Assembly: GCA_021904315.1 (NCBI GenBank)
Contig: CM038907.1
Location: forward strand, 1,364,001-1,428,000
Reading direction: 5' to 3'
Length of the DNA: 64,000 nt
Origin: Sphagnum magellanicum
Taxonomy: Eukaryota; Streptophyta; Sphagnopsida; Sphagnales; Sphagnaceae
Shown here piece by piece: positions 1-64,000 of this stretch (its first letter is position 1; each line of letters begins with the position of its first letter). Made by a program: the position numbers and the translations under genes. The notes beneath the pieces were generated by a model. The model was not told the DNA's origin. It did no database searches and was given only the letters and a program-made list of their open reading frames with translations.

Positions 1-108
1 ATTCAAAAGATATTTCAATGAATTTAATGTATTATTTTGATTTATTTATTAATGTAAAGTGAAAAACAATTTTATAAAATCAAAACAACAAAAGCACATG
101 GTCACAAC

Positions 109-3085
109 CATTTCATTTCGTAAGATATGTAAGGTTTTTTTTGGGTCCCATAATCGATTCTTTTGATCTTGAGATGCAATTTTTCGACCCAAGTCTCGTA
201 GTTGGTCATGTATGATTATCTCTCCATTCTTGCCCACTTTCAAGAATGATTTACTTTGCAAGTTTGACAAATTGATTCTAGGAGACCTTGAACTATCCCA
301 TATTCGAATTACAGTCTTTAGTTTGAAACCACAAAAAAAACAAGCAACGTCCAAAAACATATTACGTTCTGATTTTGCCAAGGCATTATAACAAATTTCC
401 AAGGTACTACAAAGCCTGTCATTTTCATCCCCATACAATGGCTCCATGTTATTCAATTTTTGTAAAGCCTCTTCCCAAATCAATAATTGGTCTTCAACTT
501 CCAAATGTATATGGGTGTGCAAAAATCCACCCATCACTTCAAGGCTTAATGGAAGCCCGGCACAAGCTTTCACAATCTTGTCAAATATGTTTTCAAATCC
601 TTTGTGTATAGGTTTTGAAAGGTCCTTAAACACATGGTATGAAAATAATTCTCTTGCTTGCTCCACATTTAATAGTGCCATGTCCACTTTTCCATCCTCA
701 CTTACACCTTGTGATTTCAAGATTTGCCAATTTCGACAAGTGATAATAACTTTGTTATTAATTTCATCTCCTTTAACAACAAGAACTTGTAATAAAACCT
801 TGAGATCTTTTTCTGTTTGAACATCATCTATAACCACCAACACTTTTTTTGACATCATACAATTTGTAATACACTTGAGATCGTAGTTATTCACATCTTC
901 ACCATTGGGTTTTATTTGACCACACAAATCATGTAAAAGACGTCTTAGAAGAATATCCAAATTTTTTGATTTCACATCTTCCAAGAAGCTAAACTTTTCA
1001 TATTGTTTGTGGAACATATGATATATTTTTTGGGCCAAAGTAGTCTTTCCAATACCACCCATTCCAATCAAACCAATGATAGGGACCTTTTCTAACTTCT
1101 TGTTAATATCTTTTGCCCTTTCTTCCAATCCCACTTCATATGGAGGTAATGATGGAAGCCATGGTTCCTGCCACAATTGATACATGCCATATATCAATAA
1201 GGATTAATGATTCTTTTAAATTACATAAACCTGAATGTTCAAATCATTTTGAATGTTATCAACTTGACATGAATGTACAAAAATCAATTTTTTTTGTTCA
1301 AACATATAATTCAAAAAATTAACTTTCATGAATTACTTGTGTATGATTATATTACAAATCTTGCACAATATTTTGTACACACACAATATAGATAAGTTCC
1401 ATTTCCATGGTATAATGAATACATATGACAACCATTGTCATTTGAAGTTGATGTTTTACCTGCAAACAAACATTCAAAATTTGCACCAATTTTGTATAAC
1501 TTATATGGTTTTTTGTAGGTGGTTGACAAATTGTCAAATGGTTTGCATCTTCTATTTTATAATTGTTGTTATTAGATAATCGTTGAGCTGATGCATATGG
1601 AACTAGAACTTCCTGCACATGATTCCAACATTTTAAGACTTAATACATGCTTGAAAATTTATTAAATGTTGGCAAGCATATATTCTCATAAATTCTAAAT
1701 TGAAAACTTTGCTAACATGATTTTCCTCTTTAATGGCTTTCTAAATATTGATAGAAAATAGCTTGTATTTGAATTTAGTGTATAAATTTTGGTTACCATG
1801 CAATATAATAACATTTAAAATTATGAAAACTTGGGGAAGATTTACAAAAGAAATTTAATATTGATCGAAAATTTAAAAGGTTTCAAAATAATGAAAATTT
1901 GTATAGGATTCAAGGTGATTGGATTGAAAACTTGCCCCTTTTTTGTTAATGGGTTGTCCTTCACCAAAAGCATAGACATTAAGGTTGGCTTTGACTTGAT
2001 CAAAATTCACTGAAAGTTCTTCCATTTGTCGATTTAATAATTGAACATTCATAAGTAGGTTTGGTTGTGTTTTTGAATACATCTTGTTGAAAGAACCAAA
2101 ATTTTGACATTGTTGTTTAAAATATGTAGAATATTTGTTTGTCCCACCTCCATGTGGAACACCATAAAAAACCATCCCATTGAGGTTATTAATAAAATTT
2201 CTACAATGTTTATTCATAATTAAATCCACATCATTTCTCATACTTTGATTGCATCGTGTTTTGGCTTCCACCACCAAACTTTTGGTTATCAAACCACCAA
2301 AGCTATAACCAACCAATACAATTGGAGCGCACCAAAGGTCTGCAAATCTACACATACAAAAATAAATTATGATAAGAAATTACAAATTAACATATAACGA
2401 TTTCATTCAAATTCCATTGATGATGTCACATAAGATTTTTTTGAAAGATTGTGCACAAAATGTATTAAATGAAGGTAAAGCCAATTACCCTCATTTTAAG
2501 ATGATACCTTAATTTTAAATTGTTTCTTTTATTTTAAACATATTTTGACACAGGAAACACCATAATGAAATTTTGAAAAGGTGACACCAAATTACAAACG
2601 AAAAACCTACATGACTTTTGACTACCATATGTTGAGCAATATATAATTACCAACAAAACACTTGATTAAAAGGATTTTTTTTGCTTAATACATTGAAATA
2701 TGGAAGGGTATTTTGAATACATATTAAAAACACAATACTTTCAAGAAAGGGGGACAAAGGGGTTGGGAAGGAAATTGTTTCACCTTTGATTCCCCACCAA
2801 ACTTTGAATGAGGTTTTTGCCAATATCTGTTATATCTTCATTGACACCAAAAATATTGGCATCATATGACAAAGAAAGGATTTGGATATTTTCTCCCATG
2901 TCCTCAGGCAACCATTCTTTTATCCAAAATGTCGGTTTCCCTCCTTCACTATTGTTGGTTGATGTCCATGTCTCTTCCCATGCATGGGCAATGTTTCTTT
3001 TAGAAACAATGCCGTGAAAAAAAATTCTAACCAATTTTGGGTCCTTTAAAATTCCATTTGGATAGACTATATGAACTGGATCTAT
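109..3085 (-). CDS. alpha/beta-hydrolase NB-ARC immune receptor (HNL-type NLR), partial
   Basis: Intracellular NLR-type immune receptor with a SERAC1-like alpha/beta-hydrolase domain in front of NB-ARC. Four exons join in frame: 3085-2784, 2347-1936, 1612-1460 and 1167-109, giving about 642 residues. The hydrolase shows an FFHG motif, the nucleophile elbow GYSFGG (2310-2293) and a late His in DANHLTI (about 1540). NB-ARC shows P-loop GMGGIGKTT (1065-1039), kinase-2 VVIDDV (about 820-835), GLPL (558-547), FLDVACFF (357-334) and an MHD-like IHDQL (about 215-200). All introns keep frame; the second appears to use a GC donor (GGG|GCAAGT). The donor at 109 is weak, so the last exon end is uncertain. 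The LRR region would lie off the left edge. No first exon or start codon was found upstream. No internal stop is seen, so the gene may be functional. Hydrolase-NLRs are known from liverworts and other bryophytes; that placement is family knowledge, and the domain calls are read from the sequence. Confidence 0.85.
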
Positions 3086-5284
3086 CTGCAAGTGATAATC
3101 AATACAACAAAATTTGTCAAATGTATCAACTTTTGTTTCATAACTTTCAAGTCAAAGGATTTGAATTTGTTATCATATTAATGTCATTTTTCATATTAAA
3201 AAAAAATTGCACATATTTTAGTTGAACATATATTGAACAATCACCAAAGTTTTCATGGCTAAAATCAAACTCAAAATATCCCAATCAATTATTATTTTTG
3301 CATATTCACACACACACACACATATATATAACAAAGATCAAACGCTTCCAAAGAATAGATCTATATGATAAATTTCCATTAATAAAAAATGATAATGAAA
3401 TTCCAGTGACAAGTAATCAAAACTAGTATATAACTTGGGATTTTTTGGAATCCTTTGTATGGTTGTCCATGGACCATTCCAAAGACAATTTCAGAAATAA
3501 TTATCTCATTTTCAAGCCTAACTACATTTCTTTCTTAATAACTACCTCCATGTTATAACTACCTCACTTCTTTTCCTTATCCTCCAACATGTATATGAAA
3601 GAAAAATTAACATGTGTGTTTTCATGTCCATGAAATATATATTAATTTAAATTCAGTTTGACATTGAAATAAATAATGATGAATTATTGAAAACCATATA
3701 AAAACATAAAAATTAATATAAATATAGTTGATTGTCACTGGTAGTCCATAGCAAAGCGGAGCTCAAATTGTTATTAAGGAAAAATTTAGAGGATCAGGGT
3801 TGAAAGCCTTAAGATAGCCACTTTTTTGACCAAAATAAAGGCTATTATCCAATGCTAAGGGTTGATGTACTTGTCTTTCTCCACTCAAAGGCAGTGCTCT
3901 TTTCCCAAACAATGCCTTGAAACGATGGCCAATTTTGCCCAGGGTTTTTAAAAATGTGATTAAAATCCAGATTAATCATGGACCTAATCTACAAGTGGTA
4001 AATAAACAAGACCTTGACACAACTTGTTCAACACATCAACTTGTCTTTATTTACTATAGTGTTAAAGATATGTGATTGATTAGCTGGGCTGTTAATGGTA
4101 TCATGCTTATTAACAAACATGTTCATTACAATGCAAAGTTGTAAACTTGCAATAGGTAATACATGATTTACCACAAATCTGCTAAAATTATATTCTATTC
4201 AACTTTAACTTCATATTTGACTGAACTACCATTTTTGCATAGTTGTACAGATTTTACCAACAAAATCAAATTTCTTACAAGCTCATTACACAATAAGACA
4301 TCTTCAAATTTCAAGGTCACCCATTTGTTTTGTAGAGCAACATTTTATATTCAAGACCTTGGCAAGTATGAAGGGTGTTTAATTACTTCCATTTTAAATT
4401 AACTTGAAGGATCATGAATTGTTTTTTGACAAATTGACGTTAGAGAGATTTCAAGTCCAAGGAAAAAAAGTAAATTTGTTGAGTTTATATGATGAAATAG
4501 ATTGTAACAAAAGAAAAGGAGCAAAAACAAATTGGAACATAACCCAAGAATAAAAGGACTGAATAGAAAAATAAGGTCACCAAGACTGACCTCTCGTATT
4601 GGCTCAAATTCAAGAGTAGCGTTGTTGACCCATATTCTTGAGAATGGGATACAACAGTCAATCGATGATATCAAACTATCCATAAATATAACATATGGGA
4701 ACTGTTGAGATGTTTTCACAAATGATGCTTATGACATCAATCATGCACAGAAAATTGGAAATCGACTGCGATGGAAATGACCCTGAGTGCCCACTCTGAA
4801 CTAATCACGCCTCATGGTCAACTTTTACTCCTTCACTGGTGGAGTACGTCATGATTGCATGAGCACCCTTCTCTCCGATCCGGACATCGCTACATCTTTT
4901 TTTTTGACAAGAAGCTTACTTTCGGTATTATGAGATAATTTACCGAATCCGGGCATCAGCTACGCAGTGATGGGCTCGACACAGACGTCCTAGTTCTCTA
5001 GCACTTCTACTAGGTTTGATACACTTCCGCTCGCCTCGTTGGGCCATCTATCCCGCCAAACGTACATTGCTTCTGGCATCAATAACAAGTGAACCGTACT
5101 TGACTCAGCAGATATCTATTGGAGTTTCAGCAGAAAAACTCTAACGGTCGAGGCTGTTAGAGTCTGCTAAGAACTCAGTTAGTGTCTTCCATGATACCTT
5201 GCACTCAGAACTCTCGCCTGGAATACATATTTATTGTCACTCCATGCTTTTGAGTTAGTTCAGATTTTCTCGCATCGTTCCCCG
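3086..5284. other. region upstream of the NLR gene, no gene recognised
   Basis: The missing 5' exon of the NLR probably lies here or farther right, but I could not identify it. A minus-strand open stretch around 3930-3770 has no recognisable domain. The stretch contains a CA/TA microsatellite at 3307-3330, a 22-bp sequence at 3724-3745 that recurs at 12722-12743, and a weak hairpin at about 3998-4062. From about 4740 the base composition becomes less AT-rich and richer in CpG, leading into the repeat array that follows. Confidence 0.4.
3307..3330. repeat. (CA)n(TA)n microsatellite
   Basis: Eight CA units pass directly into four TA units. It is a simple sequence repeat within non-coding DNA upstream of the NLR gene. 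Confidence 0.9.
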
Positions 5285-36667: not shown

Positions 36668-37954
36668 ATGTCGGATGATGATCATCACTTCGAGTCGAAA
36701 GCGGATGCAGGGGCTTCCAAGACCTTTCCACAGCAGGCCGGTACAATCCGCAAGAACGCCTACTTAGTCATTAAGACAAGGCCGTGCAAGGTAAGGCCAT
36801 CCTGTGTATCGATTCTTTGCTTAGAAAAGATGACATCCTCTTCGTGCTTCTCCCTAGGACTCATGCTGCGGGATGTCCTTCATTTCCTCGCTTCCTCTTC
36901 ATTTGGCAGACTGTCTTGTTTGGCAGGTTGTGGAGGTGTCTACCTCCAAGACCGGAAAGCATGGCCATGCGAAGTGTCATTTTGTGGCGATTGACATCTT
37001 TACTGGCAAGAAACTTGAGGATATTGTTCCCTCGTCCCACAATTGTGATGTGAGTACTTCAAAACCCCACATCCACGCATGTGCATTTGGTGTTTTGTCA
37101 CCTTCAGCTGTTTGAATAATTGAATATCTGAATAACAGCAGATTGACTTCATTTCTGCAATCTACTTGCACTTCTGAATGTCTTGAGGATTTGGGATCAA
37201 TCTGTCCTGGCTGCTGCATTGCAGGTGCCAGAGGTAGTTCGCACTGATTATCAGCTTATTGATATCTCTGAAGATGGATTTGTAAGTTTCTTTCTTTTTC
37301 TCTGCAATGGTGTGTATGTCTGGTGACAGATTTGTAGGGTTTTAGGGTTTTAGGGTCTCTGCTAGACAATGGATCTGTGCTGTTGTTCTCACATGTATGT
37401 CAATGTTCATGTCCTTGTGCCATCTGTCAAAGCATGCTTGGGTGGTGGCCATGTTTTAAAGTTTCTCTGTTCAAATGGGTTTCAAAGCATCTAGTGTTGA
37501 TGTATGCTTCTTGCTTTGTGAGTAAATTCAGGTGAGTCTATTGACTGAGAATGGAGACACCAAAGATGATTTGCGCCTGCCTACAGATGAGCAGCTTCTT
37601 ACTCAGGTTGAACTTTTACTAACACAAAATTTCTGTGCTTCTATGTATGTCCTTCAACCCATGGCATGTTGCCTTGTTGAAACTATTTGTCTCATGATAG
37701 AGATTTCCTAGGTAGACAATTTATCTGCCCTCTTGGTGCATTCTTTAACGTAGGAGAAAAGCTTTGAATATGTGGGTCATTATTCAGCAAGCTTAAATGT
37801 TTTTCTACATGCACATGTGACTAAGCTGCCAAAAATTTTGTGCTTGCAGATAATGGATGGGTTCAAGGATGGTAAAGACTTGGTGGTTACTGTCATGTCT
37901 GCCATGGGAGAGGAGCAGATCTGTGCTCTGAAAGATGTTGGTCCCAAGAACTAG
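36668..37954 (+). CDS. eIF5A: eukaryotic translation initiation factor 5A
   Basis: Cytosolic translation factor that helps ribosomes through poor peptide-bond substrates and promotes termination; active after hypusination of one lysine. Five exons, all phase 0: 36668-36790, 36927-37049, 37225-37281, 37532-37606 and 37850-37954, with GT-AG introns. The product is 160 residues, the normal plant length. It starts [20 protein letters not shown]. The hypusine loop [12 protein letters not shown] is intact, with the modified lysine at residue 52 (36957-36959). The C-terminal OB-fold region ends [15 protein letters not shown]. No disruptive change is seen. The ATG follows a purine-rich leader, and the conserved N-terminus fixes the start. 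Intron 3 contains a telo-box-like run. The gene stands alone in a CpG-rich island, as expected for a constitutive gene. Confidence 0.97.
37341..37356. promoter_or_regulatory. telo-box-like TTTAGGG repeats in eIF5A intron 3
   Basis: Two adjacent TTTAGGG units lie just after the third exon. Telo-box motifs (AAACCCTAA and reverse) are known in plant promoters and first introns of translation-apparatus genes. A regulatory role here is inferred. Confidence 0.4.
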
Positions 37955-38447
37955 AGTCTTGGGTGTGTAGCAGCCATGTCTAGAATGTGACCATTATTAG
38001 GTGGTTGGTCATGAATGCACCCTCTGTTGAATATCTAGTACATGGCCACAAAGCTGATTGATGACAGAGCTCATCAAAATATGGGCCATCCATGAACAGC
38101 TGTGGCAGCAAGGTCCATGGTGTTTGATGGCTCCTTTGGAACATCTTCAGGAGATCTGGATTCAGTGGTGGTTGGTGATGAGAAAATGGTTGTTAGCAAG
38201 AGTAGATGATTTCTTGCTTGCAGGATAGGGTAGTAGACTTGTCATAGTGTTGACTTCAGTCTAACTAAACTGTGGAGGAATAAAACACTTAACACCGACT
38301 TAACATTAGGTGTGAATGCACCTTTAGACCCACAAGTTATATCACATTGCCGGAGATTTTTGCAATGGGCAAAGTTACATGAATCAGAATTGAGAGAAAC
38401 TGCATCAGATGGAGGGTTTAGGGTTTAAGGTTTTAGGGTTCACTCAC
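37955..38447 (+). other. eIF5A 3' flank with repeat fragment and telomere-like run
   Basis: The eIF5A 3' UTR must lie in the first few hundred bases, but no clear polyadenylation signal can be fixed. The segment 38291-38322 matches 49488-49519 at 28 of 32 positions. The segment 38415-38440 contains three TTTAGGG-like units, directly next to the donor of the REC-type exon on the other strand. Confidence 0.45.
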
Positions 38448-38823
38448 ATTGAATTGGTGGTGTCAAGTGTGAGAAGGACAAAAGCTCGTAAAATTGGCCC
38501 AGTTTGGAGGGAGGGCACATCCCTGTCATGTCTCCCTTCTCTGTAGCTTCTTTTGCAGCTGCCATTGCAGCTGCAGCTTCTGGTTTTCCTTTGAAAACTC
38601 CCCTCTCAGTAGTAGTAGCTTTTGTCACTACCCCAGATTTTGCAACCTCTGGCGTGATGGTGGTGGTCTTCTTTGTCTCCCCGCCTTCAGAGCTTCTTCT
38701 TCTTCTTCTTCTTCTTATCACTGCTCCTGCTGCATCATCACTATCCCTAATCATAATTTCTTCCTCCTGAACTCCTGCTGCTGCTGATGATGACTGTGGC
38801 CTGTCCTCACCACTGCTAATTGC
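38448..38823 (-). pseudogene. orphan exon of a REC/TSS/CLU-family (clustered-mitochondria-like) gene
   Basis: The minus-strand frame ends in MCPPSKLGQFYELLSFSHL followed by TPPIQ, which closely matches the conserved segment of plant REDUCED CHLOROPLAST COVERAGE/TSS proteins (relatives of CLU/FMT). Before it lies a low-complexity Ser/Arg/Ala-rich linker, also typical of this family at this point. A donor CAAT|GTGAGT (exon end 38448) splits a codon after T, as expected for the Tyr that follows PPIQ in the family. An acceptor GCCAG fits at 38823. The exon is 376 nt and in frame throughout. No neighbouring REC exon is present: downstream lies the eIF5A 3' end and upstream a palindromic element. 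It is therefore best seen as a displaced or captured fragment. Whether it is transcribed is unknown. Confidence 0.75.
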
Positions 38824-38838
38824 CTGGCTTGATGGACT

Positions 38839-39337
38839 CCTAACGTTAAACCAGAGTTAATTAGAGGCGGGGGGGGGGGGGGGGGGGGGGGGAAAGAATC
38901 CAGCGGACAGAATGGGGTAGCTTCTATCCGGGAGACGGCTACCCCATTCTTCTCTACTCATTATTACTCCTCTACCGCCGACCGACTGTGAGATGAAGTA
39001 ATCACTAGCCGTCCCCCGGATAGAAGCTACCCCATTCTGTCCGCTGGATTCTTTTTCCCCCCCCCGCCTCTAATTAACTCTGGTTTAACGTTAGGATTAA
39101 AGAGTAAGTATTGTTGGTGCACGGGGCACACAGAAGTAAATAAAAACACGCGTCATCAATGGCCCCTTTCTGACAGCACGCTGAATTATGTAACCGCTGG
39201 ATAAAAGTGATTACTTCATCTCACAGTCGGTCGGCGATAGAGGAGTAATAATGAGTAGAGAAGAATGGGGTAGCCGTCCCCCGGATAGAAGCTACCCCAT
39301 TCTATCCGCTGGATTCTTTTTCCCCCCCCCCGCCTCT
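38839..39337. mobile_element. nested palindromic element with 24-bp G run
   Basis: The arms 38839-38930 and about 39003-39095 are almost perfect inverted repeats beginning CCTAACGTTAAACC. The loop (about 38931-39002) is itself the inverse of 39207-39265. A third copy of the inner arm (CTACCCCATTCT, CCGCTGGATTC, then a C run and GCCTCTA) lies at about 39282-39337. The left arm carries 24 consecutive G (38869-38892); the equivalent C runs are 9 (39057-39065) and 10 (39322-39331). A small hairpin module with GAATGGGGTAGC/GCTACCCCATTC ends appears three times. Unique DNA lies at about 39096-39206. The order is A', B', A, unique, B, A, as if foldback elements had nested or been inverted-duplicated. 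No coding potential was seen. Confidence 0.75.
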
Positions 39338-42300
39338 ACTTTGTTTATATCCTCCACTGCACTCTTTGAAGTCATTAATAGTAGGTGTTGGAGACTGTAT
39401 CAAGCAGAGGCAATGGCTGATGGATTTGTTCATCATGTCTTTTCAAGTGCTATGAGCTGTAATGTCTTTAGCCTGAGGGATGGTTGTTTCGGTCACCAGT
39501 TTGTGATCTACCTTAGTTTTTCCTGCAGATTTTACAATGTGTATTCAAGTTGTGGAAATGGACTTTACAAACCTGATGCATGATGTGTCACATATTTCTT
39601 AATGTTGGTTTGAGTAATTCGTCGCTGATTTATGCACAGCAAGTTAGATGATCCTGCTGTACTTAATTCCAAGTTGAGTGGATCCTTCTTTTGCAATTGT
39701 TGATAAGAGCCATCTCTTGGCATGGTGACCATTATTTGGGTTAGAATTTGTGGACAGGGAGGATCGTACTCCACATCTTGAGGTTGCTTCTAGGTGTGTT
39801 GTGAAGAAGAAGATGGAGAAGCTCTCGTAGAACTACAGTGTGCATCTTTGGCTTGTATGTCATGTGCATATATTAATGTCGCTTCTCGCATGAGTGTCCA
39901 TGGTGTAAAATTCAAACGGACAAAAGCAAAAGGGACGAAGTTTGAAGGAAAATCTTTTGAGTCCAACGGGGTAAAAATGAGAGTTCTAAGATTCATGATT
40001 TCAAGCTTGGCGTACAATTGATGATGATCTCAAGCTGCACTTACATGCTTGTACTTGCACACAATAAGGCAGGTATTCTAATCCTAATCCAAGATCTTGG
40101 AGGGAGCGTTGCAAGCATCATTGCTGGGAGCATTACTAGCATGTCTCCCCATTGTGGCAATGTCAGGCTACTCTTGTAGGTGTTCATGGTAAGTAGAGAG
40201 GAAAGTAGACAAATTTGTTGGAACCCATTGTTTAAATATGGCAATTTCGAAAAAAAAATCCTTCAAATCTGGCAACTTTGACTCATGTTTTTCACAAATA
40301 ACGGCTCCTTTGTATGAAGCAGACTGGATTGTTTATTTTTGTTGCTCAGTGATGAGAATTTGACCAAAAAGACCCCCACTGTGGAGTGTGATCATAGGTT
40401 CCAAATGGCATGTTACCAAAGAGAGTCCATGTCAATTTGGAGGGACACACACACAACCCTGCAAAACACTACAGATGCAGAAAATGTAGAAAGGAATAAG
40501 AAAAAAAAAGGGGAGAATTTGAATGACATCAAGTTAGCACAAATTAGATGTCAAAATTTGTCCATCTCAACCATTGGCTACTTGTAATAGGTCAGCCACG
40601 ATGATGGGGGCGGGGTGGGAGGGGTGTACTAACAAGGTGGAAGTCAATAAGTAGCTAGGCCTACCACTATTGCTTGACTTAATATGGAAGATGCTTGTAT
40701 CCTTTGCAATGTAATTGATGTTTTTTGAGAAAAAAAAGTAACCAAAATAGTAAGAGGAGAGTCCTTTAGCCCTTTGAAGCTCCAAATGGCATTGGCACAA
40801 TTGTGTAGGAACACATTAACTTGTTTGTGTAAACATCCAAATACTTCAATTGTTAAAGAAAAAATTGATCAGTGGGGTGTCCGATGGGGTGTTTGATGTG
40901 ATAGCTCCTTTATTTAATTTGAATTGCATCAATGGCAACAAATTTTTGAGCTGCACAAGAAGGAAATAAATCCACTCACATTGAGTCAATAATGACAATG
41001 TCAACCAGGGTGTGAATTTCATTATTGGTGAGCACAATGTTGACTCGTCAATGACAAGATTTGAACATGGTTAAAAAAAGAGCATGTAGTTGTTTTCATC
41101 CCATGTGGAAGTTAACATTTTGGACAATGGTAGCAAAAGTGCCACGAATTATATCATGGGTTCCCATATGCTTGTTACCATGGGCGTAATGAAATGGTGG
41201 ATACCCATAGGGTCAACGGGATGTGTGCACATACATCAAAGGACATTTATAATTGAAAGATGTGATAATCCAAATTGTGTTCAAAATGTTAAATGTTGCG
41301 GAAAAACTAGGAAAAATAATCAAAAGATTAAAAAGATTAATTGAATTATAAACCAAACACCCACCCAAAAGCCAGAACATGATAAAATTCAAGCACAATG
41401 GGTTTTAGATATCTTGTCAAAAAACATGTTGAAATGGGTTTGATGGTGCAAATGGTCTTAAATGGAATTATAAAGTTGAACCGTTTGTCACTCAATGAGT
41501 TATTTAAAATAAGAAAGACTTTTGTGTGTTGGGGCTAATATAAGATCAAATGTTACCTTGAAATGTTATTAGAAAAAGAAAGTGTTATTCTTGATTCGTG
41601 TTAAGGCTTCCAAAAAGAAGGGGACATTGATTGAACATAAACCCAATAACTATGATTGAAATTAAATGGGTTTAGTTCCTTAAATAGGTTGTTCGGATGA
41701 TGGTGGTTATTAATATGATCTTAATGTCACCGAAAGTTATTGGGGGAAAGATTTGTTTACAATTAGAAATCCTTTTGGGTTATTAAAGAATCTTGGACTC
41801 AAAAGGCATCCAAACATTTGAAAGAAGGAATAATGAAAGGAAACAAAGGATTTTATGGAAGTGAAAAAAAAGGTGTGCATTATAATAAATACGATGGCCA
41901 TTGCATAAAACAATGAATTATAATTTCAAAGGCTACTTAAACATCATCCATTTTAGAGAAAAGGTTGACATGTTGAACATCTTTTAACAGGGCATCTCTA
42001 ATGAGAGATGATGTGAATGATGAAATGCCAAATGAAACCACCAAAACTTTAATTCCTTTTGATGGGGTGTTAAATTGGGATGGGATGTTGAAATTAAGCG
42101 GCATGAAAAAGGGGAACCATATTACACATCTTAAAAGTTGGATTGAAAAACTTATTTCATAGAGTTTAGTTTATAAGTGTTCATACGTAAATGATATAAT
42201 TAAAGTTGGGCCTATGATATAAATGTCATTTGCAATGAATGAAAATAAACAAGAGAAAAAACAATTAATTGTAAAAGGAGAAGCTTTAAAGTGACTTAAA

Positions 42301-45229: not shown

Positions 45230-48200
45230 AAAAAACAAAATGTGAGCTTGCTCATGATGCTTGGTAAAGCATATGAGCAAGGGCATCACCACAATCAGGT
45301 AGTGCTCAGCTGCTATCTCACATGGGCCCTTATTTTGGTAATGCCCTTGTCCTTGTTCTTTACCTACACTTAGAACTCATTGATTAAGCCCAGCAACGCA
45401 GTTCATTCAACAACAAACTCTGTTTGGAGTATATAACGATCACATTGGAAATGAGTATCTGTTCACCACATTTGAAAGGTTTGCATTGATGGAAATGTTT
45501 CTGAACATACCCTTATACTCTTCTCACCAGATTCTTCATGTACCCTCAAATTGTGGCTTGACTTCCTTTTCTTCTCCAAGCTTCGCTCTAGATAGTTTAT
45601 GTATCCTAAAAGAACTCTTACTCTCAAAGTTCTCCTTGTTTGTCTCTCTTTTCTTTCCTCCATTTTCTCAGTGTTTTCCCATGTCTAGCAGCTTTCTTTC
45701 TGTTCACTCTTGCTTTTCTGATTTTCTTTGGTTTTTATTCTCTTCTCTCTCACTTGTAGGTTTGCCAAGCTACCCAGCATCATGTACTGCTTATTGCTGT
45801 CAGTCTTGTGATATAAACTTGGTATAGTGCTTCATTGTGTTTGAGATTTGTCAACACCCAGTCTCAGAGAGCAAATGTTATAGCAAATCACCAATATTAT
45901 ACATTAGTTGAAGTTGCACATTTCTCACTTGTGTTTCTTTCCCCATGTGTTCTGTTGTACCTGCAGATTGGATTGCAGAGCAACAAAAAAACATGGCCAC
46001 AGTTGCTTTCTTTCCTCATCATTTACTTGACATGAGTTTGCTTCATCCCTACTTCGTGTTCTGAAGTTGTGTTAATTCCATGTGACACATATGGAAATGT
46101 GGAAGTCATAAGCACAAAGTAGATTCAGAAAGTTTTTCAAGAACTTAGTTCTTGTGTTACTTCCGCAAGTTAGCAAGTCTTTTGGGTTTGCTCAATATGA
46201 GCTATTTGAGCACAGCCCATCTGTGTTAGAAAAAGTGCCCATCTTTAAAATCAAATAACTGGTTTTCCCTTTCATCTTTGTCATACCATATTTGCAATGT
46301 GGATGCCACAGTGTTCATGGAGATTGCAGTGTTCGCAAGTAGTTACTGTAAACCTGAAGATTCTGCTTGGAAGTTCCACCCTCTGCCACAGCTTGTCTTG
46401 CATGACTTCTCATTTCTTTCATGTTGTTTTTTATGGACTCACCTTCCACCTCTTCCATCAGTGCCCTTATATTCCTCTCAACCTCCTGCTTTGATACAAA
46501 TCCATCTCTGTCTTTCTTCATCTCCATTGCCAGCTTTGCTGTGTGAACCAGGAACCTGCAGAGACAAATCACAGCACAAATCACATGGGAGGATGTAAAA
46601 TTGATTCTTCAAAGGTATGACAAGTTTTGAAGAAGCTGCAGGTTCTTCTGACCTGCAATTCAAGTGCTGCTCTGCTCTTAAAGGCCATGCAAGAAGAGGA
46701 ACGCCTTCACAGATGCTCTCCATTGTAGAGTTCCAGCCACAGTGCGACAAAAAACCACCTGTGGCTGGGTGCTGTAAGATCCGCTTTTGTGGTACCCAAC
46801 CTGAGACACACAATCCACGAGCTTTTGTGTGCTCTTTGAATCCTGGTCCCCACCAGAGCACAATAGAGAACAGTTTATTGGAGAACATCATATTGGAGCC
46901 ACCCTGCTGGAACAGACTGGATGCACCATCATCAATCATACTGCAGCTGCGGGTACAGATTGATTGTGCAAAACCAAAGTTTTTTAAATGCATGTCAAAC
47001 TTTCTGCAATGAATGGGATCTTTGGTAATGCAATCAAAATGAGAGAGATAGTAGAAGGGTTGTGCTACCTGGAGGGAGGACCAATCCAGAAGCATGCCGT
47101 GAAGAAGAACTGGAATCACTGGGTTGATCTGGTGTGCGTACAACCCACAGGAAGGATTGATTGCTAGCTTCAAGGCCTTCTGCAAGCTCCAGAATCTGAG
47201 CAGCTGAGATAGTTGCATAGCTCCCAAATGCAATGTACAAGACTGAAGACGGAGGCTGCATGTTGAGCCAAAGTATGCTCATGTCTTGCTCTTCATCTGT
47301 GGCTTTGTTGAGAGCATGAAGCTCTGATTCTTCATCATCCTGTTGCACATTTGTCTCCAGAAGCAGAGGACCAATTTCCAAGATGGTTTGAGTCTGCAAG
47401 AACCAAGCTATGGCATGCTGTTACAGGAGTCAAAATATCCCACAATGCTGACCGTTGCAAAAATTTCTGTGCTTTTCAAGGACAGACAATGCACAAGAGG
47501 TAATTGCAAAGCCTAGGACATAGCTAACCTTTACAGCTCCAGTGCCAATGACTTTCTCACGAAGAGCATTCAGAACTCTCCATTCCAAGGATTGGAATGT
47601 GTTGATGAGGATGACTGTGGACTGGCAGCAGGCAGGAAAGGTCCACAGAAAATCAGAGAAGGAAGGATCCAACTGCATTGTTTCTGGAAGATCGCATGCA
47701 GGAAATGGTGGAATTCCAGGTATGTCAGTTATAGGGACATCTCTGTTTTGAGGTGCCACAGGAACAAGACCTTCTTCACGAAGCCGCTGTGCCTGCCATC
47801 ATCATCATGACATCTGTAATTGCAGCATCCCTTTGCAAAAAAACCTTCTCAAACTATCAAAGCAACCACCAGTACATGGAGAAATCTTTGGCAAAATGTA
47901 CAAATATAATCTGCATCTTCAACTGTGCTGTCCCCATGATTTTTCTAGCCAGATTATCTTGTTTGATTCTCATTTCTTCATGTTATTTCTTGTTTAAGAA
48001 ACGAGAGAAGAGGTTGCAGCAACGAAGAAAGATCCTGAAGACCTGTGGAAGAAGAATAGTGCCTGGGAATAGTCGCAAAGAGCCATAGCTGCGGGAGACA
48101 GCATTTTTTCATGTTCTTTCTCGTACAAGAAATAACAGAAGAGATTGCAGCAACAAAGAAGGGTCCTGAAGACCTGTGGAAGAAGAATCGTGCCTGGGAA

Positions 48201-48441
48201 AAGACGCAAAGAGTCAAAGCTCCGGAGACAAACAAGAGATGTTTGGCGAGCTTGTGATTGTCAGCTACTTCCTGGCTCCAAGTGGAGAACATATCATACA
48301 AAATACAACAAGGTGTAGATCGTTGTTGTAATGCAGCTGCAGCAACCGAACTCGCATCACCGTTCTGCTTCAAATGATGAGATGATTGCAAAAGCTCAAC
48401 TACAACTTCCTCCAACAGATGTATCATATTCCTCTCCCCTT
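45230..48441. repeat. segmental duplication, copy A (UGT locus)
   Basis: This stretch is collinear with 60793-64000 at an offset of 15563-15566 bp, with only small indels and scattered substitutions. The homology starts at an A-rich phrase (AAAAAACAAAAT), directly after the presumed 3' end of RPS10. It includes the whole UGT gene body, introns and about 1 kb of 3' flank. The real right end is unknown because copy B is cut by the window. A direct tandem duplication with a unit of about 15.6 kb would explain it. Confidence 0.9.
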
Positions 48442-57975: not shown

Positions 57976-58466
57976 GTGCATTTGGAAAGGTTTTTACATT
58001 GGTTTTAAGACTCATCATTCTATTGTTTTTCACAAACTATGAAGTAGGTGAGAGGCTATTTTAGTATGAAGGCTATGCGTTGGTTGTAGCACTATTTTTT
58101 TGCAAGATGTTGGAATCTTTATTCTAGCGACACTAGTATGTTAGAGCACACACAATTGGAATGGAACTTTGCTCAAGCTTTGTTGCCTCCATTTATGAAA
58201 AGCAACTTAGGTGATGATGAGTGCATTTGGAAAGGTTTTTACATTGGCTTTAGGACTCATCATTCTATTGTTTTTCACAAACTATAAAGTAGGTGAGAGG
58301 CTATTTTAGTATGAAGGCTATGTGTTGGTTGTAGCACTATTTTTTTGTAAGATGCTGGAATCTTTATTGTAACGACACTAGTATGTTAAAGCACACACAA
58401 TTGGAATGGAATTCTGCTCAGGCTTTGTTGCCTCCAATTATGAAAAACAACTTAGGTGATGATGAG
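57976..58466. repeat. 245-bp tandem duplication
   Basis: Units 57976-58220 and 58221-58466 start GTGCATTTGGAAAGG and are nearly identical, with about ten single-base differences visible. Each ends in CTTAGGTGATGATGA. No frame is open across a unit. Confidence 0.9.
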
Positions 58467-58932
58467 TGGATTTATTTCATTGCTCTAATAATGGGAGTTC
58501 ATTTTGTTTTTTCAGCATTATTGGATCGTTGATTGGATTCCACCAAATTCATTTTTGTTTTCTTCTTGTTTTTTTCCACCCAACATCTCTCAACCTATGT
58601 TTGTGATGAAAGTGATGCTTTAATACTTTGTTTGAATGGTTTTCATAAAATATGAAATGTGATTTTAGTATGGCTGCCTTAGAAAAACTAATGCGAACAA
58701 TTACAATCAAAAATCAAAATTTCTCTTCATGTAATAATTGTCATGTAAAAAAAACCTACACAGACCAACATATAAAAAAATCAAAGATTGAATTAAATAA
58801 AATCAAAGAATTAAAAATAAATATAAATAAACAAAGATGAGGAAAAAAACACAAAAAATGGAAATAATCAAAAAAAAGTTCCAAACTTACAACATGCAAC
58901 TTTAATAACGCAAAAGGAGGGCATAATAGTTA

Positions 58933-60792: not shown

Positions 60793-61875
60793 AAAAAACA
60801 AAATCTCAGCTTGCTCATGATGCTTGGTAAAGCATATGAGCAAGGGCATCACCACAATCAGGTAGTGCTCAGCTGCTGTCTCACATGGGCCCTTATTTTG
60901 GTAATGCCCTTGCTCTCGTTCTTTACCTACACTTAGAACTCATTGATTAAGCCCAGCAATGCAGTTCATTCAACAACAAACTCTGTTCGGAGCATATACC
61001 TATCACATTGGAAATGAGTATCTGTTCACCACATGTGAAAGGTTAGCATTGATGAAAATGTTTCTGAACATACCCTTATACTCTTCTCACCGGATTCTTC
61101 ATGTACCCTCAATTCGTGGCTTGACTTCCTTTTCTTCTCCAAGCTTCGCTCTAGATAGTTTATGTATCCTCAAAGAACTCTTGCTCTCAAAGTTCTCCTT
61201 GTTTGTCTCTCTTTTCTTTCATTTTCTCAGGGTTTTCCCATGTCTAGCAGCTTTCTTTCTGTTTGCTCTTGTTTTTCTGATTTTCTTTGGTTTTTATTCT
61301 CTTCTCTCTCACTTGTAGGTTTGCCAAGCTACCCAGCATCATGTACTGCTTATTGCTGTCAGTCTTGTGATATAAACTTGGTATAGTGCTTCATTGTCTT
61401 TGAGATTCGTCCACACCCAGTCTCAGAAAGCAAATGTTATAGCAAATCACCAATATTATACATTAGTTGAAGTTGCACATTTCTCACTTGTGTTTCTTTC
61501 CCCATGTGTTCTGTTGTACCTGCAGATTGGATTGCAGAGCAACAAAAAAACATGGCCACACAGTTGCTTTCTTTCCTTATCATTTACTTGACTTGAGTTT
61601 GCTTCATCCCTACTTTGTGTTCTGAACTTGTGTTAATTCCATGTGACACATATGGAAATGTGGAAGTCATAAGCACAAAGTAGATTCAGAAAGTTTTTCA
61701 AGAACTTAGTTCTCGTGTTACTTCCGCAAGTTAGCAAGTATTTTGGGTTTGCTCAATATGAACTATTCGAGCAAGGCCCATCTGTGTTAGAAAAAGTGCC
61801 CATCTTTAAAATCAAATGACTGGTTTTCCCTTTCATCTTCGTCATACCATATTTGCAATGTGGATGCCACAGTGT

Positions 61876-64000
61876 TCATGGGGATTGCAGTGTTCGCAAG
61901 TAGTTAATGTAAACCTGAAGATTCTGCTTGGAAGTTCCACCCTCTGCCACAGCTTGTCTTGCATGAGTTCTCATTTCTTTCATGTTGTTTTTTATGGACT
62001 CACCTTCCACCTCTTCCATCAGTGCCCTTATATTCCTCTCAACCTCCTGCTTTGATACAAATCCATCTGTGCCTTTCTTCATCTCCATTGCCAGCTTTGC
62101 TGTGTGAACCAGGAACCTGCAGAGACAAATCACAGCACAAATCACATGGGAGGATGTAAAATTGATTCTTCAAAGGTATGACAAGTTTTGAAGAAGCTGC
62201 AGGTTCTTCTGACCTGCAATTCATGTGTTGCTCTGCCCTTAAAGGCCATGCAAGAAGAGGAACGCCTTCACAGATGCTCTCCATTGTAGAGTTCCAGCCA
62301 CAGTGCGACAAAAAACCACCTGTGGCTGGGTGCTGTAAGATCCGCTTTTGTGGTACCCAACCTGAGACACACAATCCACGAGCTTTTGTGCGCTCTTTGA
62401 ATCCTGGTCCCCACCAGAGCACAATAGAGAACAGTTTATTGGAGAACAGCATATTGGAGCCACCCTGCTGGAACAGACTGGATGCACCATCATCAATCAT
62501 ACTGCAGCTGCAGGTATGGATTGATTGTGCAAAACCAAAGTTTCTAAAATGCATGTCAAACTTTCTGCAATGAATGGGATATTCTTTGGTAATGCAATCA
62601 AAATGAGAGAGATAGTAGAAGGGTTGTGCTACCTGGAGGGAGGACTGATCCAGAAGCATGCCTTGAAGAAGAACTGGAATCACTGGGTTGATCTGGCGTG
62701 CGTACAACCCACAGGAAGGATTGATTGCTAGCTTCAAGGCCTTCTGCAAGCTCCAGAATCTGAGCAGCTGAGATAGTTGCATGACTCCCAAATGCAATGT
62801 ACAAGACTGAAGATGGAGGCTGGATGTTGAGCCAAAGTATGCTCATGTCTTGCTCTTCATCTGTGGCTTTGTTGAGAGCATGAACCTCTGATTCTTCATC
62901 ATCCTGTTGCACATTTGTCTCCAGAAGCAGAGGACCAATTTCCAAGATGGTTTGAGTCTGCAAGAACCAAGCTATGGCATGCTGTTACAGGAGTCAAAAC
63001 ATCCCACGATGCTGACTGTTGCAAAAATTTCTGTGCTTTTCAAGGACAGAGAATGCACAAGAGGTAATTGCAAAGCCTAGGACATAGCTAACCTTTACAG
63101 CTCCAGTGCCAATGACTTTCTCACGAAGAGCATTCAGAACTCTCCATTCCAAGGATTGGAATGTGTTGATGAGGATGACTGTGGACTGGCAGTACGCAGG
63201 AAAGGTCCACAGAAAATCAGAGAAGGAAGGATCCAACTGCATTCTGCCTGGAAGATCACGTGCAGGAAATGGTGGAATTCCAGGTATGTCAGTTATAAGG
63301 ACATCTCTGTTTTGAGGTGCCACAGGAACAAGACCTTCTTCACGAAGCCGCTGTGCCTGCCATCATCATCATGACATCTGTAATTGCAGCATCCCTTTGC
63401 AAAAAAAAACCTTCTCAAACTATCAAAGCAACCACCAGTACATGGAGAAATCTTTGGCAAAATGTACAAATATAATCTGCATCTTCAACTGTGCTGTCCC
63501 CATGATTTTTCTGGCCAGATTATCTTGTTTGATTCTCATTTCTTCATGTTATTTCTTGTTTAAGAAACGAGAGAAGAGGTTGCAGCAACGAAGAAAGATT
63601 CTGAAGACCTGTGGAAGAAGAATAGTGCCTGGGAATAGTCGCAAAGAGCCATAGCTGCGGGAGACAGCATTTTTTCATGTTCTTTCTCGTACAAGAAATA
63701 ACAGAAGAGATTGCAGCAACAAAGAAGGGTCCTGAAGACCTGTGGAAGAAGAATCGTGCCTGGGAAAAGACGCAAAGAGTCAACGCTGCGGAGACAAACA
63801 AGAGATGTTTGGCGAGCTTGTGATTGTCAGCTACTTCCTGGCTCCAAGTGGAGAACATATCATACAAAATACAACAAGGTGTAGATCGTTGTTGTAATGC
63901 AGCTGCAGCAACCGAACTCGCATCACCGTTCTGCTTCAAATGATCAGATGATTGCAAAAGCTCAACTACAACTTCCTCCAACAGATGTATCATATTCCTC
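61876..64000 (-). CDS. family-1 UDP-glycosyltransferase, copy B, 5' end off window
   Basis: Second UGT copy in the same orientation as copy A. Exons: 64000-63760 (partial first exon, same GC-type donor problem), 63356-63093, 62957-62633, 62403-62214 and 62116-61876. Splice sites and frame are conserved and no stop is seen, so it is probably intact. The PSPG box is complete, with one change beyond its last Gln (HMNC for HLNC). Other protein differences from copy A that I can see are KGTDG/KDRDG, RTH/RSH and YINY/YSNY in the last exon; KERT/KEHT in exon 4; SEVH/SELH, NIQP/NMQP, GSHA/GSYA and GSVL/GLVL in exon 3; [24 protein letters not shown] and AYCQ/ACCQ in exon 2; SSDH/SSHH in exon 1. Several lie in the acceptor-side half and could alter substrate preference; that is inference. 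Confidence 0.88.
63536..63798. repeat. 131-bp tandem duplication across UGT exon 1/intron 1 boundary (copy B)
   Basis: This is the same two-unit tandem as in copy A, shifted by 15566 bp and almost unchanged. Confidence 0.8.

Follow-up and report, generated by a model that had tools for sequence, protein, structure and literature searches.

The nested palindrome downstream of an eIF5A-type gene in Sphagnum magellanicum is real in the assembly and is most likely part of a long filler insertion of a known kind, drawn from multiple sources. We assign a probability of roughly 0.7 to the reading that this insertion is filler DNA from template-switching break repair, in which one donor segment was re-copied in reverse and so gave the palindromes. 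On this reading, the locus is a readable trace of apparent multi-template repair in a moss, with the empty site still present in paralogues. It also means that a long palindrome need not come from a palindromic transposon, and it is a caution that nested inverted repeats in raw sequence are not necessarily elements. The first-pass annotation had set the feature at 38839..39337; these coordinates take in the palindrome but leave out the left half of a composite insertion of ~1,047 bp (~38291-39337), which begins ~550 bp further left. The insertion comprises six pieces, and related DNA was found for five of them.

The window, the whole 64,000-nucleotide stretch analysed here (C1:1364001-1428000), was compared with a genome of 438,994,042 bases (439 Mb) in 31 contigs. 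It has the character of plant nuclear DNA (GC 34.5%, CpG observed/expected 0.31) and contains an eIF5A-type gene, an S10 gene, UGT exons and an NB-ARC gene. The NB-ARC resistance-type frame (52-1203) occupies part of a minus-strand region at 52-3151, where an upstream frame (1876-2379, minus strand) has no Pfam match but by eye is presumably an alpha/beta-hydrolase (GYSFGG); hydrolase-NLR genes occur in early land plants. Elsewhere, 45230-48225 and 60793-63791 form a direct duplication ~15.56 kb apart, 95-99% identical in the 300-nt stretches listed. A 131-bp tandem repeat is present in both copies, and a frame in the second (62042-62842) matches UDPGT. A further 245-bp unit occurs twice in tandem at 57976-58473 (94%).

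The insertion lies ~340 bp past the stop codon of the eIF5A-type gene (Table 1). An upstream exon of this gene matches IF5A-like_N (PF21485), while the last coding exon and its counterparts at three paralogous loci were recognised by their motifs, and we take them to be eIF5A-type on that basis. All four loci (L034, L035, L036 and the window at 36.6-39.7 kb) have similar DNA for several hundred bases past the stop codon. The two flanks of the insertion are contiguous in the paralogues at C1:28.48M and C2:34.81M, which therefore represent the empty site: in the C1 paralogue the left flank matches up to locus base 2022 and the right flank from base 2019 onward, with ACTT common to both, and in the C2 paralogue the corresponding positions are 2415 and 2418. 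Both flanks also match the paralogue at C5:7.68M, with a gap between them and a right match that begins only at 39396. The window reads AATAAAACACTT followed by AACACC at the left border and GCCTCT followed by ACTTTGTT at the right border, and the C1 paralogue reads AATAAACAACTTTGTT at the left border. The insertion ends, AACACCG... and ...GCCTCT, do not form an inverted-repeat pair, and the ACTT present at both ends may be an overlap with the MITE piece.

Table 1. Pieces of the composite insertion, its flanks and associated features. Positions are those of the window; L006 is the C15 locus.
Feature	Position	Strand	Remarks
Last coding exon, eIF5A-type gene	37850..37954 (start approximate)	+	Like exons in three paralogous loci
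Left flank	36900..38290	+	70-73% identity to C1:28.48M, C2:34.81M and C5:7.68M
ACTT, left copy of 4-bp duplication	38287..38290	.	Window versus C1 paralogue
Piece 1, truncated right end of ~215-bp MITE family	38286..38328	+	First 5 bases overlap target
Piece 2, 46 bp, source unmatched	38329..38374	.	A few MITE matches run on for up to 21 bases (to 38349)
Piece 3, part of C11 reading frame and ~68 bp past its stop	38375..38837	-	Antisense
Piece 4 (S1), inverted C15-type copy with G24	38838..39006	-	38838-38997 is 85% identical to L006:2517-2370
G24 homopolymer	38869-38892	+	Equivalents C9 at 39057-39065 and C10 at 39322-39331
Piece 5 (S2), direct C15-type copy	39006..39117	+	93.8% identical to L006:2426-2538
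16 bp between S2 and S3	39118..39133	.	No match to C15
Piece 6 (S3), second direct C15-type copy	39134..39337	+	39134-39341 is 90.4% identical to L006:2293-2496; last bases overlap target
ACTT, right copy of 4-bp duplication	39338..39341	.	Flank comparison
Right flank	39338..39660	+	66-70% identity to C2:34.81M and C1:28.48M

Piece 1 has at least 36 short matches in the genome at 84-100% identity (40 scored of 249 first-look candidates). Twenty of these 36 were read (L037-L056), and in 18 the best inverted counterpart lies 167-227 bp leftward, the exceptions being L046 and L055, where it is elsewhere. Full copies of this MITE family measure 203-216 bp at five of the six loci measured, and the family ends are AAGGTGCATTCACA... 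and ...TGTGAATGCACCTT. The piece in the window lacks the inner part of the element and has the outer end facing the inside of the insertion, which argues that the MITE piece was copied or truncated and is not the insertion's own terminus. The MITE copy used as source was not found among the matches. Piece 2 is possibly the neighbourhood of that copy; apart from the MITE run-ons, none of the genome matches listed covers it.

Piece 3 is 97% identical to C11:13810249-13810711, with 6 substitutions in 460 positions (1.3%) and two visible 3-bp gaps (another count gives three events, one of which may be an end effect). It begins inside the C11 frame, which spans 195 codons from stop to stop and has no Pfam match, and it stops where the palindrome starts, with TCCT common to both. 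C11 has the longer frame, with relatives of part of it on C18 (80%) and C13 (76%), and was therefore taken as the source. No intron could be shown inside the piece, and its template may have been either DNA or RNA. Telomere-like TTTAGGG repeats at 38413-38440 are present in the C11 source too. An insertion into an antisense coding exon (38443-38856), suggested by flanks that seemed to join in frame, was rejected when the exon itself proved to be inserted sequence that matches C11.

A repeat search of the window resolved the palindrome into three inverted-repeat pairs: 38878-39006 with 39206-39334 (129 nt, 95%), 38879-38941 with 39006-39068 (63 nt, 94%) and 38838-38877 with 39057-39096 (40 nt, 100%). 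The latter two combine into arms of 104 nt (38838-38941) and 91 nt (39006-39096) that differ by one base outside the homopolymer tract, plus the tract itself. The 64-nt loop between them (38942-39005) is the inverse of 39206-39270, and the 129-nt pair overlaps the arm palindrome to give two distinct centres of symmetry. These results reproduce the near-perfect arms of ~90 bp that had been described from the raw sequence, as well as the loop that inverts nearby DNA and the overall order A'-B'-A-unique-B-A. The same description counted a hairpin module three times, which is correct for the 16-base module GGATAGAAGCTACCCC in the window but not for the complete small hairpin (13-bp stem, 16-nt loop), which occurs only twice (38909-38950 and 39262-39303), the middle copy being one half of it. 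For a 21-base module with up to three mismatches, 0.00 chance matches are expected (100 shuffles), and none of 100 shuffles folds as well as the region does when folded as DNA (z = -21.5). At lax thresholds the region gives 13 RNA family matches, all below gathering scores and six of them to plant microRNA precursors (E < 0.001), which we take as what any long hairpin yields; no tRNA, and no Rfam family at threshold, was found in the window.

The homopolymer tract is a pure run in all three window copies, reaching 24 only in S1, whereas the tract of the C15 relative is interrupted (T6-C-A-C6-T-G). Run counts bear out the earlier remark that the length of the G run is unlike that of its C9 and C10 equivalents. 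G24 is the longest G/C run of the window, and 30 other fetched loci (90,040 bp) contain six G/C runs of at least 10, the longest being 16, so a length of 24 is unusual within the loci looked at. This length may reflect either slippage and expansion or a consensus error. PacBio CLR data are prone to errors in homopolymer length, and the outlying run would fit a palindrome created by assembly or sequencing. In the portion of the source consulted, the assembly of Sphagnum divinum is described as built from PacBio CLR reads (PMC9946827). An artefact of this kind is nevertheless very unlikely to account for the palindrome as a whole: the borders of the insertion fall at the paralogous empty site, the private substitutions and two symmetry centres would not be expected from a single strand-switched read, and the unit was found independently on C15.

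When the 499-bp palindrome was used as a query, the genome returned five matches in two places, the window and C15:13243292-13243515, and the C15 segment as query (E up to 10) returned four matches in the same two places. A genome-wide search for the module, proposed as a check in the first-pass annotation, was made with GGATAGAAGCTACCCC at up to one mismatch and gave five hits, comprising the three in the window, one on C15 and one on C20, while the backwards control gave none. The C20 hit is without further similarity. As judged by these sequence comparisons, the palindrome module is not dispersed through the genome. C15 carries it as one unrearranged copy, at whose ends no inverted repeats were found. 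Two candidate start codons (L006:3234 and L006:3645) follow 0.7 or 1.1 kb downstream of this copy, neither of their frames having a significant Pfam match; at a distance of ~3 kb and beyond, three exons match Choline_transpo (PF04515), the third below the curated cut-off. The C15 segment may be part of the promoter of a choline-transporter-like gene.

These results bear directly on the origin of the nested inverted repeats, which had been attributed either to an element nested into its own kind or to foldback replication. The second suggestion survives, in that strand-switching copying is the best reading of the palindrome. The first would make it a foldback transposon or MITE, as nested inverted repeats alone might suggest, and we consider this extremely unlikely: only two loci were found in 439 Mb at E up to 10 (match counts are lower bounds for large families), the C15 copy has no end repeats, and unrelated pieces adjoin the palindrome within the same insertion.

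The composition of the insertion (GC 51%, CpG observed/expected 0.76, against 0.12 and 0.34 in the flanks) raised the idea of an organelle insert, which was dropped given the related nuclear DNA on C11 and C15. Elsewhere in the stretch, 27 of 2500 windows reach 51% GC and 92 of 2500 reach that CpG ratio, including stretches where the eIF5A-type and S10 genes begin. Searches of other collections gave nothing of substance: four exact insert patterns had 0 matches each in viral_contigs, and one had 0 in genome_contigs. The plasmid collection had no match to the whole insert and two short matches to a sub-piece at E = 6, and the phage collection (25 records) had one 35-base match, also at E = 6. 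A literature search with sequence words from the insert matched one word in each of three papers, all on unrelated subjects to judge by their titles.

S1, S2 and S3 all map inside one 246-bp interval of the C15 locus (L006:2293-2538), and the last 9 bases of S1 match S3. Relative to C15, S1 and S3 have seven substitutions in common, with one private to S1 and two private to S3 (columns in the homopolymer tract, and one S3 column past the junction and hence in the target, were left out). The common differences and the few private ones indicate that the copies came from one template, and their divergence from C15 indicates that this direct template was not the present C15 sequence. Genome searches did not find the template, giving only C15 besides the window. 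With the tract left out, substitutions against C15 number 12/179 in S3 and 2/52 in the F-U1 part of S2, a total of 14/231 (~6%). The copies are closer to one another (S1 versus S3 3/111, S2 versus S3 1/46, S2 versus S1 1/46 and the F part 0/31), and the 3/111 between S1 and S3 exceeds the 6/460 of the C11 piece, though few bases are involved. If a single event had used C15 as donor, the C11 and C15-type pieces should show similar divergence, unlike the 6/460 and 14/231 observed, and a simple account leaves this mismatch unexplained. It could stem from another version of the template (a paralogue, another lineage or an extrachromosomal copy), from stepwise build-up or from differences in rate between loci.

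The order of S2, the gap and S3 is circularly permuted with respect to C15, with a 265-bp period and ~71 bp of terminal redundancy. This raises the alternative that a small circular DNA carrying a C15-type segment was integrated and that S2-gap-S3 represents its permuted unit. The donor order (2426-2538, 16 bp, 2293-2496), the direct-repeat spacing of 265 and a template that differs from the resident C15 locus are all compatible with this, but the inverted S1, the C11 piece and the MITE piece would each need further steps, and we regard integration of a circle as quite improbable. The permutation would suit a small circle as donor without requiring one. In a related version, which we consider distinctly unlikely, the donor of S1-S3 would be an extrachromosomal circle, or DNA of another Sphagnum lineage with a diverged C15-type segment, copied by rolling-circle and strand-reversing synthesis while the break was repaired. 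If true, such a donor would explain both the permutation and the contrast between ~6% and 1.3% divergence.

Several captured pieces in one insertion, a left end that overlaps MITE sequence and ACTT at both ends could also point to a non-autonomous, gene-fragment-capturing transposon of the Pack-MULE, Pack-TIR or Helitron type that entered as a single unit and duplicated 4 bp of its target. We think this unlikely, since the insertion ends lack terminal inverted repeats, and the MITE piece is a truncated right end with its outer end facing inward. Helitrons have a 5' TC, a 3' hairpin followed by CTRR and insertion between A and T, and direct reading of the borders revealed no such ends. A scan for terminal repeats with target duplications, run without a shuffled control, gave only weak pairs, and the composite was not found elsewhere by the genome queries made. 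A larger transposon bounded by TTATATC at 38337 and 39345 was also considered, but the pair was taken as chance, and the paralogous empty site puts the borders elsewhere.

Template-switching break repair is the reading that best accommodates pieces from different places, tiny overlaps at their joints, reversed re-copying and the lack of inverted repeats at the ends. At least three sources contributed pieces, which adjoin one another directly save for the 16-bp gap and the 46 unmatched bp. When the MITE end and the 46 bp are counted together, the insertion has six junctions, four of which show overlaps of 3-5, 4, 1 and 1 bp (counted without a chance control, and the 1-bp overlaps weigh little). 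These are CACTT between target and MITE (the paralogues confirm no more than CTT or ACTT), TCCT between the C11 piece and S1, T between S1 and S2, and A between S3 and target; the S2/S3 joint has the 16-bp gap and no overlap.

In the proposed sequence of events, the chromosome would have broken downstream of the eIF5A-type gene, and a repair polymerase would have copied short unlinked stretches, changing from one template to the next where they had minimal homology. The first to be copied would have been a MITE end, probably together with adjacent DNA, followed by part of the C11 reading frame and then by a ~250-bp segment related to the DNA upstream of the C15 choline-transporter-like gene. 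This last segment would have been re-copied three times, once in reverse, and the inverted re-copy would have generated the nested palindromes. We infer that a single repair event made the whole insertion and that the pathway was polymerase theta end joining or synthesis-dependent strand annealing.

Three known kinds of system come closest to this locus. Pack-MULEs are transposons that capture gene fragments, and like the present insertion they can hold fragments of several places in one unit; here, however, the ends lack inverted repeats, no copies of a family were found and the MITE end is truncated. Foldback elements and large-stem MITEs are defined by long inverted repeats, a feature that they have in common with this locus, but the palindrome was not found dispersed and its repeats do not reach both insertion ends. 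Plant filler DNA and templated insertions are, like the present insertion, copied patchworks of direct and reverse-complemented stretches at a site that is empty in relatives, with short overlaps at the joints to which those read here may correspond. In the excerpts available, templated insertions of Arabidopsis include direct, reverse-complement and multi-stretch matches (PMC5217109), rice has filler DNA of 1-123 bp at 58 of 94 putative excisions (PMC4423477), and fillers of 'a few bp to several kb' are mentioned (PMC5023962). Compared with the plant cases described in those portions of PMC5217109 and PMC4423477, the 1,047-bp insertion of S. magellanicum is longer, draws on more sources and contains one donor segment three times.
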